Shown: positions 4,987 through 38,077 of the stretch, one piece after another | How positions within the stretch are numbered: the first letter of the stretch is position 1 | Layout of the letters: each line of letters starts with the position of its first letter | From: Thermodesulfobacteriota bacterium | Lineage (GTDB): Bacteria > Desulfobacterota > BSN033 > UBA1163 | Reading direction: 5' to 3' | DNA: 42,819 nucleotides | Assembly (NCBI GenBank): GCA_030017685.1 | Contig: JASEHH010000022.1 | Location: forward strand, 1 to 42,819 | Translations under genes and position numbers: made by a program | The notes under the pieces: model-generated | The model's database searches: none | Seen by the model: only the letters and a program-made list of their open reading frames with translations | Told to the model about the DNA's origin: nothing

Positions 4987-5727
4987 ATGCTCAACATTGA
5001 CCTCATCAATACTTACTATGGTCAGATCCATGCCCTGAAAGACCTCTCCCTCCATATCGAAAAGGAGGAGATCGTTGCCCTGATCGGCTCGAATGGCGCG
5101 GGGAAATCAACTCTTCTAAACACAATCTCAGGCATTACCCCTCCCCGCACAGGTTCGATCCGTTTTAATGGGGTCGAGATTTCACGGATCTCTCCGGAGA
5201 AGATCGTCTCACAGAGAATTGTGCAGGTGCCGGAGGGACGGCAACTCTTCAGCCCCCTTACCGTCCTCGAAAATCTGGAACTGGGGGCATTTCTCCGGTT
5301 CTCCGGAGAATCGAGGAAAAATATTGAAAAAGATCTCCACTATGTGATGGAACTCTTCCCCATCCTCAAGGAAAGAAGGGAACAGAAAGCAGGAACATTG
5401 AGCGGCGGGGAGCAGCAGATGCTCTCCATTGGCCGGGGCATCATGGGAAGACCCATGTTGATGCTCCTGGATGAACCCTCTCTGGGTTTAGCTCCCCTGA
5501 TCGTTACGGAAATTTTTAATGTTATCCGAAAATTGCAGGAGGATAAAACGACGATCCTTCTTGTTGAACAGAATGCAAAGGCCGCCCTCCGAATCGCCGA
5601 TCGTGCCTATGTGATCGAAACCGGTAGAATCACCCTGAAAGGGGAGGCGAAGGTTTTAATGGAGAACGAAGAAGTCAAAAAGGCTTATCTCGGCAAGGAT
5701 TATCGTGAGAAACGGAGGCAGATATGA
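4987..5727 (+). CDS. livF-like: ABC transporter ATP-binding protein (LivF family)
   Basis: The product is 246 residues, near the normal length for LivF. Walker A GSNGAGKST is at residues 34-42, the signature LSGGEQQMLSIGRG, Walker B MLLDEPSLGL and switch LVEQNAKAAL. The VPEGRQLFSPLTVLENLELGA stretch is diagnostic of LivF. It forms the ATPase pair with LivG. The ribosome-binding site GAGGAATGAGGT overlaps the livG-like stop. Its own end overlaps the start of the next gene by 4 bp (ATGA), tying the transporter translationally to the molybdenum-hydroxylase genes. Confidence 0.92.
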   Translation: MLNIDLINTYYGQIHALKDLSLHIEKEEIVALIGSNGAGKSTLLNTISGITPPRTGSIRFNGVEISRISPEKIVSQRIVQVPEGRQLFSPLTVLENLELGAFLRFSGESRKNIEKDLHYVMELFPILKERREQKAGTLSGGEQQMLSIGRGIMGRPMLMLLDEPSLGLAPLIVTEIFNVIRKLQEDKTTILLVEQNAKAALRIADRAYVIETGRITLKGEAKVLMENEEVKKAYLGKDYREKRRQI

Positions 5728-10069: not shown

Positions 10070-10554
10070 AAGAAGTCAGGAGTCAGAATTCAGAAGGCAG
10101 AATGAAAAGATCTCCGGCCAAGTCATTTCAAGATTTGATCGTTTGGCAAAAAGCGCATCACTTTATATTATCTATTTACAAATTCACTGAAAATTTTCCA
10201 AAAAGTGAAACATATGGATTAACATTGCAATTAAAGAGAGCAGCCATTTCCATTCCCGCTAATATCGCAGAAGGCTTCAAAAAAAAGACGAAACCAGATA
10301 AGGCTCGTTTTATGAATATTGCACAGGGTTCTCTTGAAGAATGCCGGTATTATTTGATTCTTGCCAAAGACCTCGGGTATGGTGATACAGAAGCCTTAGT
10401 GTCCCAGATTGAAGAAGTCAGCAAAATCTTGGAGTCTTATTCTTCCGTCATTCTGTCTTCCAGCTCTTGACTACTATCTCCTGACTCCTGACTTCTGGCT
10501 CCTGTCTTGTGGCTCCTGCCTCCTGTCTTCTGACTCCTGTCTCCTGACTTCTTC
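10069..10554. mobile_element. S23 cassette 2: four-helix-bundle gene with inverted word arrays
   Basis: The left array (10069-10101) reads AGAAGTCAGGAGTCAGAATT-like words. The right array (about 10440-10554) is a long series of CTCCTGACTCCTGACTTC, CTCCTGTCTTGTGG and CTCCTGCCTCCTG words ending GACTTCTTC. Its reverse complement begins GAAGAAGTCAGGAG, the same as the left end. The unit is about 7-8 bp and degenerate. It starts immediately at the stop codon of the Mo-hydroxylase large subunit. Confidence 0.78.
10102..10470 (+). CDS. Four-helix bundle protein (S23 family), copy 2
   Basis: The product is 122 residues with the classical S23 opening SFQDLIVWQKAHHFILSIY and central motif RAAISIPANIAEGF (about residues 46-59), followed by GSLEECRYYLILAKDLGY. 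These are the hallmark helices of the family. The last residues (SSVILSSSS) are encoded by the right-hand word array, so the true ancestral C-terminus may be shorter. The start overlaps the left array (GGCAGAATG) with no strong ribosome-binding site. It lies downstream of the enzyme operon and upstream of a kinase, with no functional link visible. Function is unknown. Confidence 0.88.
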   Translation: MKRSPAKSFQDLIVWQKAHHFILSIYKFTENFPKSETYGLTLQLKRAAISIPANIAEGFKKKTKPDKARFMNIAQGSLEECRYYLILAKDLGYGDTEALVSQIEEVSKILESYSSVILSSSS

Positions 10555-15369: not shown

Positions 15370-15417
15370 AATAAACATTCCGCATTCCGCAATCCGCATT
15401 CCGCAATCCAAACGAGG
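15370..15417. repeat. ATTCCGC word array without an S23 gene
   Basis: The stretch contains CATTCCGCATTCCGCAATCC and CGCATTCCGCAATCCAAACG, direct degenerate words of 7-8 bp in the same style as the S23 arrays. It precedes the helix-turn-helix gene and would be translated if the upstream ATG at 15367 were used. Confidence 0.6.
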
Positions 15418-20314: not shown

Positions 20315-20443
20315 TAGTTTGGAGTAATGAGTTCGAAGTTAGGAGAAAATGATAAGGATGAGGAAAAAAATTAAATCTTTAAAGAATAATTTCAAAAGAC
20401 TCGGAATTAAAAACTCCGAACTCCGAACTCCGAACTCCGAACT
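20311..20443. repeat. Inverted CTCCGAA word array spanning the start of a pseudopilin gene
   Basis: The left arm reads GTTTGGAGTAATGAGTTCGA, AGTTAGGAG. The right arm has four CTCCGAA words in a row (20414-20443). The arms are inverse to each other with about 65 bp between them. The right arm is translated as repeated NSELRTP residues in the leader of the next protein. Confidence 0.65.
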
Positions 20444-20870: not shown

Positions 20871-21650
20871 ATGCGGAATAAAAAATCCAAATTGATAAAA
20901 TCGAGTGTAGTGAATTTAACATTTCTTAACAGTGGTCTAAGAACTGTCATTCCCGCGAAAGCGGGAATCCAGATTGAAAAGACTGGATTCCGGATCAAGT
21001 CCGGAATGACAAAATATGTGAAGTCATATCTGAATAAGCACATTAAAATGCGGAAGCATAACTCCGAACTACGAACTCTGAACTCCGAACTTCAAAAGGG
21101 TTTCACCCTCATCGAAATCATCATTGTGATTGTCATTTTATCCATTGTCTCGGGTATTACTATTAAGTTCTTGATTGACAGCCTGAAAATCTATACAATG
21201 ACCGTCAATCAAAAGACGCTCTTTGATGAAGGGAAGCTGGCGATGGAGAGGATGTGCAGGGATATTCGGGATGCAAATGGCATCACAGGAACCACAGCAT
21301 CTTCGATCACCTTCACAAGAGCCCATACAACAGTTCAGGACGTTGCCGGTGAAACTATCATATTTCAACTGAACGCAGGCACAGGCACTCTGCAAAAGGA
21401 TAAGTCATTACCTCTTCCTGACCCTCCTCCTGTAGATATGGCTAGCAATGTCACAGGGTTTGTTGTAACGAATGCGACAAACGAGATCCAACTTCGATTA
21501 ACACTCCAATTGACAAGTGGCGAAAGTGTGAGGTTACAGACAAAGGTGTATCCAAAAAACCTTCCACCAGATGTAACTCCACTAACTGCAACATATAATA
21601 AGCACTTTGGCGGGAATTGGAAGGAGGTTAAAAGTCCGGACGCGTCATAG
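20871..21650 (+). CDS. Type IV prepilin-like protein (GspJ/PilW-like) with an 80-residue repeat-encoded leader
   Basis: The prepilin motif QKG|FTLIEIIIVIVILSIVSG lies about 75-95 residues after the ATG at 20871, which has AAAGGATA upstream. The intervening leader is encoded by a MITE-type core (VIPAKAGIQ, typical of its translation) and by AACTCCGAAC words. The in-frame ATG at 21048 would give a 27-residue leader but has no ribosome-binding site. The mature part carries GKLAMERMCRDIRDANGI, typical of PilW/GspJ minor pilins. Either the protein has a very long leader or translation starts inside; the sequence cannot decide. Confidence 0.75.
   Translation: MRNKKSKLIKSSVVNLTFLNSGLRTVIPAKAGIQIEKTGFRIKSGMTKYVKSYLNKHIKMRKHNSELRTLNSELQKGFTLIEIIIVIVILSIVSGITIKFLIDSLKIYTMTVNQKTLFDEGKLAMERMCRDIRDANGITGTTASSITFTRAHTTVQDVAGETIIFQLNAGTGTLQKDKSLPLPDPPPVDMASNVTGFVVTNATNEIQLRLTLQLTSGESVRLQTKVYPKNLPPDVTPLTATYNKHFGGNWKEVKSPDAS
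20946..21009. repeat. MITE-like core (copy C) without terminal repeats
   Basis: GTCATTCCCGCGAAAGCGGG starts a hairpin that is followed by GACTGGATTCC and the second hairpin TCCGGATCAAGTCCGGAATG. The internal layout equals that of the full MITEs, but the TCGTAAAAAGTC ends and a target duplication are not visible. It lies in frame in a pseudopilin leader. Confidence 0.7.
21056..21093. repeat. AACTCCGAAC word array, single arm
   Basis: The stretch AACTCCGAACTACGAACTC continues with TGAACTCCGAACTTC. Inverse words (GAGTTCTGAGTTGTGAG) occur at 22545-22590, about 1.5 kb away. It is translated as NSELRTLNSEL just before a prepilin cleavage site. Confidence 0.55.
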
Positions 21651-32407: not shown

Positions 32408-32452
32408 GAATCACAGGTCAACGAATACAAGCGCTAACTTAATTAATCTGAT

Positions 32453-33092
32453 GCCCCAGAGGGGGATACATGACAATAGCCCAGCGATTCATCGCTGGGG
32501 AGAAAAGATAATATAAGAGTCCCATCGGGACGATTGAATCCTACCCCCAAACATACCGTTCATCGTAATCGATTTCGTGTCGTCTCAAAAACTCAATATA
32601 TTCTTCCTGAAATGTCTTCCGCTTGTGATGCTCAGCCTGATTTTCAATATACCGGATCGTATCCTCCAACAGGGAAACATTGACGCTGAAGGCCCCATAT
32701 CCCTCCTGCCATGCAAATTTCTGTAAGCCCGCAAAGGTGTCATGAACCCATTTTGATGAACCACCTTTAATGAGTTGCACCGCTTTTGCCACTGGAAGGG
32801 TTGTGGGAAGCGACAGAAGGACATGAGCGTGATCCTGCATTCCGCCGATGGACAATGCCTTCATGTGGTTTTCTCGTGCGATCCCACCCATGTAAGCCCA
32901 CAATCGATTCTGCAAATCGGGAGTGATCATGGCCTGGCGTTCCTTTGTACTGAAAACGATGTGGACATAAAGGCTGATGTACGAATTAGCCATTTTCAGC
33001 CTCCTTTTTCAATCGTCCCCATGGGACTTCTTTTTTCATTCACATCAACGGCGATAAATCGCCGGTCTATTATCGAATATCCCTATTGGGAT
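32453..33092 (-). mobile_element. IS200/RAYT-like element with three-hairpin inverted ends
   Basis: Both ends of the transposase gene carry the same three palindromes in inverted orientation. Left: CCCC-AGA-GGGG (32454-32464), CCCAGCGA...TCGCTGGG (32480-32499), GTCCC-ATC-GGGAC (32519-32531) followed by GATTGAA. Right, read inward on the minus strand: TCCC-AATA-GGGA (33080-33091), CGGCGAT-TT-ATCGCCG (33049-33064), GTCCC-ATG-GGGAC (33015-33027) and GATTGAA. The sequences between hairpins also match (for example ATA...GA.AATAG). Total about 640 bp. Confidence 0.82.
32541..32993 (-). CDS. tnpA-like: Y1 (HUH) transposase, IS200/REP-associated tyrosine transposase-like
   Basis: The product is 150 residues. 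It has ISLYVHIVFSTKERQ (strand 1 of the Y1_Tnp fold), the HUH pair in QDHAHVLLSLP, and the catalytic Tyr region DTIRYIENQAEHHKRKTF. The length and FQEEYIEFLRRHEIDYDERY tail are typical of IS200-type or RAYT proteins. GGAGG lies 8 bases before the ATG. These enzymes cut single-stranded DNA at hairpins, and the hairpin-rich ends here would be the substrate. It appears intact. It lies between the pilus operon and a divergent polysaccharide-type cluster. Confidence 0.93.
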   Translation of the reverse strand: MANSYISLYVHIVFSTKERQAMITPDLQNRLWAYMGGIARENHMKALSIGGMQDHAHVLLSLPTTLPVAKAVQLIKGGSSKWVHDTFAGLQKFAWQEGYGAFSVNVSLLEDTIRYIENQAEHHKRKTFQEEYIEFLRRHEIDYDERYVWG

Positions 33093-33216
33093 TTTTTCCC
33101 GAACTCCCACTCTTCTTAAGTTAAGGGTAATGTCCCACGAGGAAGTGTGGAGGGCGAGGGGTCAACATTCGTAAAATATTTTTTGTATCATTTAAATAGC
33201 GTCTGTATTCAATCTT

Positions 33217-33348
33217 GATGGTCTCGTAAAAAGTCTGAAAAGGCTATTGTCTGTCATTCCTGCGCAAGCAGGAATCCAGTATTTTCATATAGTTAGAATT
33301 CTCTGGATTCCCGTTTTCACGGGAATGACGACTTTTTACGAATTCATC
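33217..33348. mobile_element. MITE copy D, 132 bp, with 6-bp target duplication
   Basis: The left end is GATGGTCTCGTAAAAAGTC, the right end GACTTTTTACGAATTCATC. AATCTT is found directly on both sides (33211-33216 and 33349-33354). Internal hairpins are ATTCCTGCGCAAGCAGGAAT and ATTCCCGTTTTCACGGGAAT. It ends 10 bp from the stop codon of the GT2 gene. Together with the right end of the IS200-like element it accounts for most of the 365-bp gap 32994-33358; the rest (33092-33216) shows nothing recognisable. Confidence 0.88.
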
Positions 33349-33358
33349 AATCTTTATC

Positions 33359-37275: not shown

Positions 37276-37659
37276 TCACCATGTCGCTGTGGCGGCCGCA
37301 TATGTCCCGTAGGTCGTTGGCGCCTGGAGATTTGTTGGCGAAATAGTAAAAAGGAATGTATACCCCCCAGCCGTAAGAGTAAAATTTGTAGCATTATAGG
37401 CGTAGGTTGCTCCCTGAATATTTGCATTATTAACAATCTGGTCCATCGTATAGGATGCGATTGTCCCTTTTAACAGACGGTCGGCAAAGACGAGGGAATT
37501 CGCGCTTCTCAAAGCTCCCAGTATACCCCTTGCTGTCCCATTGGCAGCATCCCGGGTTAGGTCGAGGTATCTCGGAATGGCAACAGCAGCCAGGATACCA
37601 ATAATGACAATAATGACGATCAGCTCGATAAGGGTAAAACCCTTCTGGTTTCTTAACAT
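37276..37659 (-). CDS. Type IV major pilin-like protein (MshA/PilA family), paralogue 2
   Basis: The product is 127 residues. The prepilin site is NQKG|FTLIELIVIIVIIGILAAVAIPRYLDL with a six-residue leader and Glu5. The globular part starts ARGILGALRSANSLVFADRL and ends QAPTTYGTYAAATATW. There is no C-terminal disulfide pair. It is about 75-80 % identical by eye to the gene just upstream, so it is a tandem duplicate. AGGAGGG precedes the ATG by 6. It is probably the fibre subunit of the MSHA-type pilus whose assembly genes lie on the other strand. Confidence 0.92.
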   Translation of the reverse strand: MLRNQKGFTLIELIVIIVIIGILAAVAIPRYLDLTRDAANGTARGILGALRSANSLVFADRLLKGTIASYTMDQIVNNANIQGATYAYNATNFTLTAGGYTFLFTISPTNLQAPTTYGTYAAATATW

Positions 37660-37693
37660 CTTTCCCTCCTGTTTTTATTTAAGTATAGGCGCC

Positions 37694-38077
37694 TCACCAT
37701 GTTGCTGTGGCGGCCGCAATCGTCCCATAGGTCGTTGGCGCCTGGATTTGTGTCGGGGCAAGCGTAAAAAGATAAGTAAACGCCCCTGCTGTTACCGTAA
37801 CATTCGTAGCATTATAAGCGTAGGTTACTCCTTGAATATTCGCATTGTTAATAATTTGGTCCATTGTATAGGATGCGACTGTCCCCTTTACAAGACGGTT
37901 TGCAAAGACAATCGAATTTGCACTTCTCAACCCTGCCAATACCCCTCTTGCAGTGGCATTGGCCGCATCCTGGGTTAAATCGAGGTATCTCGGAATGGCC
38001 ACCGCCGCCAGAATTCCAATAATGACAATGATGATGATCAGCTCAATTAATGTAAAACCCCTCTCTTTTCTCAGCAT
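37694..38077 (-). CDS. Type IV major pilin-like protein (MshA/PilA family), paralogue 1
   Basis: The product is 127 residues, with the class III signal ERG|FTLIELIIIIVIIGILAAVA and the pilin helix continuing to IPRYLDLTQDAANATARGVL. The C-terminal beta region (TVTAGAFTYLFTLAPTQIQ) is the more variable part relative to the second copy. GAGGTGA lies 7 bases upstream. It is the promoter-proximal gene of the pair. The identical lengths and shared NNANIQG.TYAYNATN block show a recent duplication with preserved function in both. Confidence 0.92.
   Translation of the reverse strand: MLRKERGFTLIELIIIIVIIGILAAVAIPRYLDLTQDAANATARGVLAGLRSANSIVFANRLVKGTVASYTMDQIINNANIQGVTYAYNATNVTVTAGAFTYLFTLAPTQIQAPTTYGTIAAATATW

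Follow-up and report, generated by a model that had tools for sequence, protein, structure and literature searches.

What kind of element places a single Y1 transposase gene between two mirror-image sets of hairpins, three in each, with the same order and the inverse orientation? The locus that raises this question lies in the window, by which we mean the whole stretch of DNA analysed, 42,819 nucleotides from a Thermodesulfobacteriota bacterium (contig JASEHH010000022.1). The original prediction likened it to a RAYT lying at the centre of a REPIN that is built of triple hairpins and split in two. We treat the two parts of that reading separately: how the locus is built, and the family to which its transposase belongs. 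The features are as follows.

32429–32442, plus strand: left terminal inverted repeat AAGCGCTAACTTAA, of IS186/IS421 type (CATAAGCGCTAACTTAA in better-kept copies), from a genome count and a match to IS186A.
32451–32467, plus strand: left outer hairpin ATGCCCCAGAGGGGGAT, from the DNA fold.
32480–32499, plus strand: left middle hairpin CCCAGCGATTCATCGCTGGG, with ATAG at its 5' foot, from the DNA fold, the hairpin family and covariation.
32519–32531, plus strand: left inner hairpin GTCCCATCGGGAC, from the DNA fold; 32519–32538 with the conserved tail GATTGAA (GTCCCATCGGGACGATTGAA).
32541–32993, minus strand: Y1 (HUH) transposase gene, 150 aa, from Pfam, NCBIfam, alignment, tree and fold.
33015–33027, minus strand: right inner hairpin GTCCCATGGGGAC; 33027–33008 with the tail GATTGAA (GTCCCATGGGGACGATTGAA).
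33064–33049, minus-strand reading: right middle hairpin CGGCGATTTATCGCCG.
33092–33079, minus-strand reading: right outer hairpin ATCCCAATAGGGAT.
33116–33132, minus strand: right terminal inverted repeat, degenerate TTAAGTTAAGGGTAATG (TTAGGTTAGCGCTTATG in intact copies), from comparison with the copies L084, L108, L109 and L116.

The left and right halves form a 76-nt inverted repeat of 71–74% identity, and this inverted match is the best non-self match anywhere in the 3.96-Mb genome (BLASTN E = 5e-5). Aligned locally it scores 74, and the highest score at 5000 random places in the window is 39. When both ends were folded, as the original prediction had suggested, each proved more stable than shuffled sequence, with z scores of -3.6 and -2.7. 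The folds and the inverted repeat together bear out the triple hairpins, their order and their orientation. The inner block, GTCCCATsGGGACGATTGAA, occurs at two places only in the assembly, and both flank the Y1 gene. The first description needs two corrections: the conserved structure reaches past the coordinates given there, out to the terminal inverted repeats at either side, and the position of the gene is 32541–32993 on the minus strand. Rfam matched no known RNA structure in the window. Two other readings of the hairpins were set aside. As terminators, they would leave the mirror symmetry around the gene and the dispersed inverted pairs described below unexplained. A link to the CGTC-tagged REPs (PMC3733652), prompted by CGTCCC in the inner hairpins, was not adopted because the tag is unpaired in those REPs and lies in the stem here.

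The window holds further repeats of other kinds. A second, unrelated MITE-like insertion at 33205–33355 consists of a 27-nt inverted repeat (GTCATTCC...GGAATGAC) enclosed by inverted arms of 21 nt (TCGTAAAAAGTC type); it is flanked by TCAATCTT twice, and is absent at the orthologous site in G003, a genome of the same genus. A tandem duplication occupies 37276–38071 (418-bp unit, 1.9 copies, 81% matches), and arrays of 7-bp tandem repeats (CTCCTGA, CATTCCG and AACTCCG) occur at 10478–10549, 15376–15409, 20412–20443 and 21060–21091.

The architecture is shared by relatives of the transposase. The same inverse triple layout, in different sequences, occurs in Terriglobia (L016), Prosthecobacter (L017) and Thermoanaerobaculia (L025), and inverted hairpin flanks of one form or another are seen in relatives from Acidobacteriota, Verrucomicrobiota, Bacteroidota and KSB1. 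Within 220-nt flanks of 28 relatives there are 80 strong hairpins, where 4.6 are expected; about 10 of the 28 have none or almost none, and when flanks were tested against mismatched controls, 11 of the 28 loci came out above the 95% level. The layouts vary, being triple, double or, in many rumen Bacteroidales, arrays of short hairpins. The stems of the middle hairpins covary: among 49 distinct 23-mers, 4.37 of the 5 free pairs are formed on average, against 1.95 after shuffling, and 25 distinct perfect stems are represented. The foot of this hairpin reads GTAG in the L016, L025 and G060 (Prosthecobacter) copies, and ATAG in those of the window, G065 (KSB1) and G069 (Bacteroidetes).

Copies of the hairpins that lack the gene would be expected of a REPIN-like system. 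None was found in the window's own assembly, where they could have been lost at contig ends broken by insertion sequences. The same genus holds at least six, one of them at the orthologous site. Genome G003 contributes one broken gene copy and five further copies that are gene-less or partial; G006 and G007 contribute a single gene-less copy apiece. Three copies (L109, L116 and L120) share an internal deletion junction, ATCGC followed by CCCCCTTTT, so the gene-less form itself has moved. A fourth, L112, occupies the orthologous pilB/glycosyltransferase site with the gene deleted. The element is absent from that site in four other species, although the empty-site junction is unreadable in these four relatives because the intergenic sequence is too diverged. 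One gene-bearing copy of G003 (L021/L047, positions 76–589) is disrupted by an insertion as well as a stop, and the left-type hairpin half beside it is intact.

What moved these copies is a separate matter. The better-kept copies in the genus start and finish with inverse CATAAGCGCTAACTTAA-type repeats, which are degenerate in the window copy and are equal, at 17 of 17 bases, to the end of E. coli IS186A. An exact target duplication of 11 bp (CCCTCTCCCCG, twice) lies on the two sides of L109, comparable to the 10-bp duplication that flanks E. coli IS186A; 9 of the 11 bases agree in L084, and the duplication is not preserved in other copies. The left terminal repeat occurs 18 times in the window's genome, against one control occurrence, and 17 of the 18 are no more than ~50 nt from a contig end; just two interior continuations are seen. 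This pattern is what one multicopy insertion sequence breaking the assembly would give. An IS186-type element of ~9 copies, with both ends seen, lies at contig ends of this genome (G000; e.g. C1, C21, C29, C199 and C295); its body is missing from the assembly, and repeat counts there are therefore lower bounds. A search of the genus with E. coli InsL found no IS186-type transposase at 1e-5, possibly because the body of the element is missing from the assemblies. The original prediction overlooked these ends. In this genus the mobile unit is bounded by terminal repeats of a DDE-type element that lie outside the hairpins, and dispersal here is therefore not to be ascribed straightforwardly to the Y1 enzyme. 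To judge from these ends, it looks MITE-like and DDE-driven.

The strongest rival explanation starts from the same ends. It treats the Y1 gene, together with the hairpins, as a mere passenger of a MITE, of IS186 type here and of IS5 type in Prosthecobacter, moved by DDE transposases alone. The IS186 ends on both sides and the 11-bp duplication speak for it, and so does Prosthecobacter, in which the gene-less pairs carry the ends AGGCCGTGTTTGAAAACCT. These are nearly identical to the ends of a resident IS5-family insertion sequence (L253; DDE_Tnp_1, DUF4096), whose type of end is present in about 45 copies, mostly at contig ends. Yet the Prosthecobacter copy that bears the gene has no such ends, and hairpins flank the gene across phyla without common terminal repeats. 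Capture by a DDE element and amplification of hairpin pairs as MITEs probably took place in Prosthecobacter too, but we think it unlikely that the DDE transposases account for the whole.

The gene-less pairs of other genomes also bear on this. We searched with a middle-hairpin pattern that leaves five positions of the stem free on either side; it was chosen after the data were seen, and gave 56 matches against 0 in the control for G069, 44 against 0 for G065 and 20 against 1 for G060. The matches are largely inverted pairs, ~100–160 bp apart, and several genomes of relatives hold about 10–30 gene-less inverted pairs each. The aligned copies of G069 (16 pairs) and of G065 have a common order: an RTAG hairpin, an inner hairpin, the centre, and then the mirror image. 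In Prosthecobacter the gene-less units have the layout of the gene-bearing copy with the gene missing. The pairs and arrays of G065 showed no short terminal repeat around them, and one and the same G069 core occurs in differing outer contexts; both count against the passenger explanation. The G069 pairs (L171–L186) have CATAGCCGTCAGGTTAAG-like repeats at their borders and often lie beside palindromes of the GGGGCGTTGCCCC type. The CATAGCCGTCAGGTTAAG repeat is IS186-like in look, and no insertion sequence was identified for it. No convincing target duplications were found for the Prosthecobacter or G069 pairs.

Hairpins and gene also tend to occur together. Among 148 Bacteroidota genomes, the gene is present in 15 of the 16 with at least three hairpin matches and in 53 of the other 132 (Fisher p = 6e-5, with relatedness among the genomes ignored). 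One Bacteroidota genome, G207, has 95 middle-hairpin matches and no gene of subclass 1.2 (discussed below) at E 1e-10. In several genomes the dispersed type of hairpin flanks the gene as well (e.g. CCCCGGACTTCAGTCCGGGG on both sides in G111). Gene-less inverted hairpin pairs in genomes that carry the transposase, the mark of a REPIN, are found in the same genus and in other phyla. As a description of architecture, the split REPIN of triple hairpins is well supported, with gene-less double- or triple-hairpin pairs in the genus and in other gene-carrying genomes, and none in the window's own.

The family assignment fared otherwise. The protein matches Y1_Tnp of Pfam at 96.9 bits and has intact catalytic motifs (H55/H57, W95-Q96, Y115, Q119 and H122-H123), with the signature DHAH, WQ and YIENQAEHH (115–123). 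In an alignment of 22 relatives, 11 columns are invariant, including H55, H57, W95, Q96, Y115, Q119 and H123; H122 is nearly so. A 2018 survey (Quentin et al., PMC6006769) described, under TnpA_Y1 subclass 1.2, proteins of ~150 aa with Y---Q--HH and WQ, sister to the IS200 transposases, which occur at low copy number in divergent copies, mainly in Cyanobacteria and Bacteroidetes, without REPs, insertion-sequence properties or terminal structures. The subclass had been split from ordinary IS200 because neither insertion-sequence properties nor REPs had been shown for it. The window protein agrees with that description in its length, in Y---Q--HH and in WQ. Its gene is single in its own genome and present in 1–12 divergent copies in relatives, and in a tree of 90 proteins, 74 sequences of subclass 1.2 type lie on one side of a branch with support 89/84, which adjoins IS200 (98/96), with the RAYTs apart on long branches. 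The one departure in its motifs is alanine in DHAH, where the subclass lists DH[IV]H. From sequence and tree, the window transposase belongs with the proteins of subclass 1.2 type and is not a RAYT.

A conventional RAYT/REPIN system (TnpA class 2 with GTAG REPs) would account for the inverse hairpin flanks, the single or low copy number, the gene-less inverted pairs, and the tetranucleotide (GTAG or ATAG) that several members have at the base of the middle hairpin. The protein speaks against it. It scores 27.6 bits with the REP-associated transposase model NF047646 of NCBIfam, for which the cut-off is 80; the RAYT motif Y---NP is absent, with YIENQ in its place; and the phylogeny, proposed at the outset as a check, groups it with IS200. 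Its nearest matches among solved structures, whether sequences or folds are compared, are the IS608 and ISDra2 TnpA proteins, and the RAYT of E. coli is undetected by sequence and the weakest of 30 significant fold matches. We regard this explanation as very improbable. No better placed is the alternative of an autonomous insertion sequence of the ordinary IS200 type, with short subterminal hairpins as its true ends and the other palindromes accidental: the NCBIfam IS200 model is passed (66 against a cut-off of 55), but the near-identical multiple copies with subterminal hairpins that mark IS200/IS605 elements are lacking, with one copy here and divergent copies elsewhere, and the long inverse symmetry kept across phyla and the subclass 1.2 signature make the idea scarcely tenable.

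The reading that we consider likely is that of a REPtron-like locus of subclass 1.2, in which the halves are the enzyme's predicted single-stranded DNA sites, the gene-less pairs are REPIN-like, and the whole was captured by a DDE element in this genus. The inverse multi-hairpin halves would be recognized, and presumably bound and cleaved, as single strands by the encoded HUH transposase, and the pairs of halves without the gene would be the non-autonomous, REPIN-like elements that belong to it. Halves and gene may, in this genus, have become enclosed by the terminal repeats of an IS186-type DDE element, after which gene-deleted versions would have spread as MITEs by the IS186-type transposase; outside the genus, the Y1 enzyme itself may move or maintain the gene-less pairs. 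A wider proposal, that subclass 1.2 makes up a third, independent REPIN-making system, that its multi-hairpin REPINs are spread over several phyla, and that these have repeatedly been domesticated inside DDE-type MITEs, we put forward tentatively, as a possibility somewhat short of even.

We see the locus as a variant of the REPtron kind rather than a separate kind, and it can be set beside several known systems. With the RAYT/REPtron and its REPINs (Bertels and Rainey 2011, PMC3116915; e.g. E. coli RayT) it shares the single Y1 gene, the inverted hairpin flanks and the dispersed gene-less pairs; it differs in the class of its transposase, in having two to three hairpins per half and a conserved inner tail by the gene, and in often being wrapped in DDE-type ends. 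From subclass 1.2 as surveyed (PMC6006769), which is common in Bacteroidetes, it differs in DHAH, in the inverse hairpin flanks, in the gene-less pairs and in extending to further phyla. No REPs or REPINs for the subclass are described in the literature searched, subscription papers lying outside the search. The TIRYT/TIRtron (Di Nocera et al. 2013, PMC3733652) likewise has a Y1 gene between terminal inverted repeats, some of them ‘double palindromic’ and some repeated; its proteins, however, are mostly of class 2.1 with extra C-terminal domains, and its CGTC and GGGGWSAS motifs are not established here. IS608 and ISDra2 (IS200/IS605) have the same catalytic fold and HUH/Y residues, but each of their ends has a single subterminal hairpin, and the two hairpins face the same way on one strand, in place of long inverse triple hairpins. 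IS186/IS421 (IS4 family) and its MITEs resemble the locus in the terminal repeat, in the 10–11-bp target duplication and in insertion at G/C-rich palindromes; here a Y1 gene with hairpins takes the place of the DDE gene.

Inverse multi-hairpin halves, with strong covariation and with hosts that include cultured species, are accordingly proposed as a candidate DNA substrate for subclass 1.2. They would represent another origin for the abundant palindromic repeats of bacteria. Their presence inside the ends of DDE transposons in two lineages bears on the origin of bacterial MITEs, and, if the wider proposal is true, one repeat would be movable by two mechanistically unrelated transposases.
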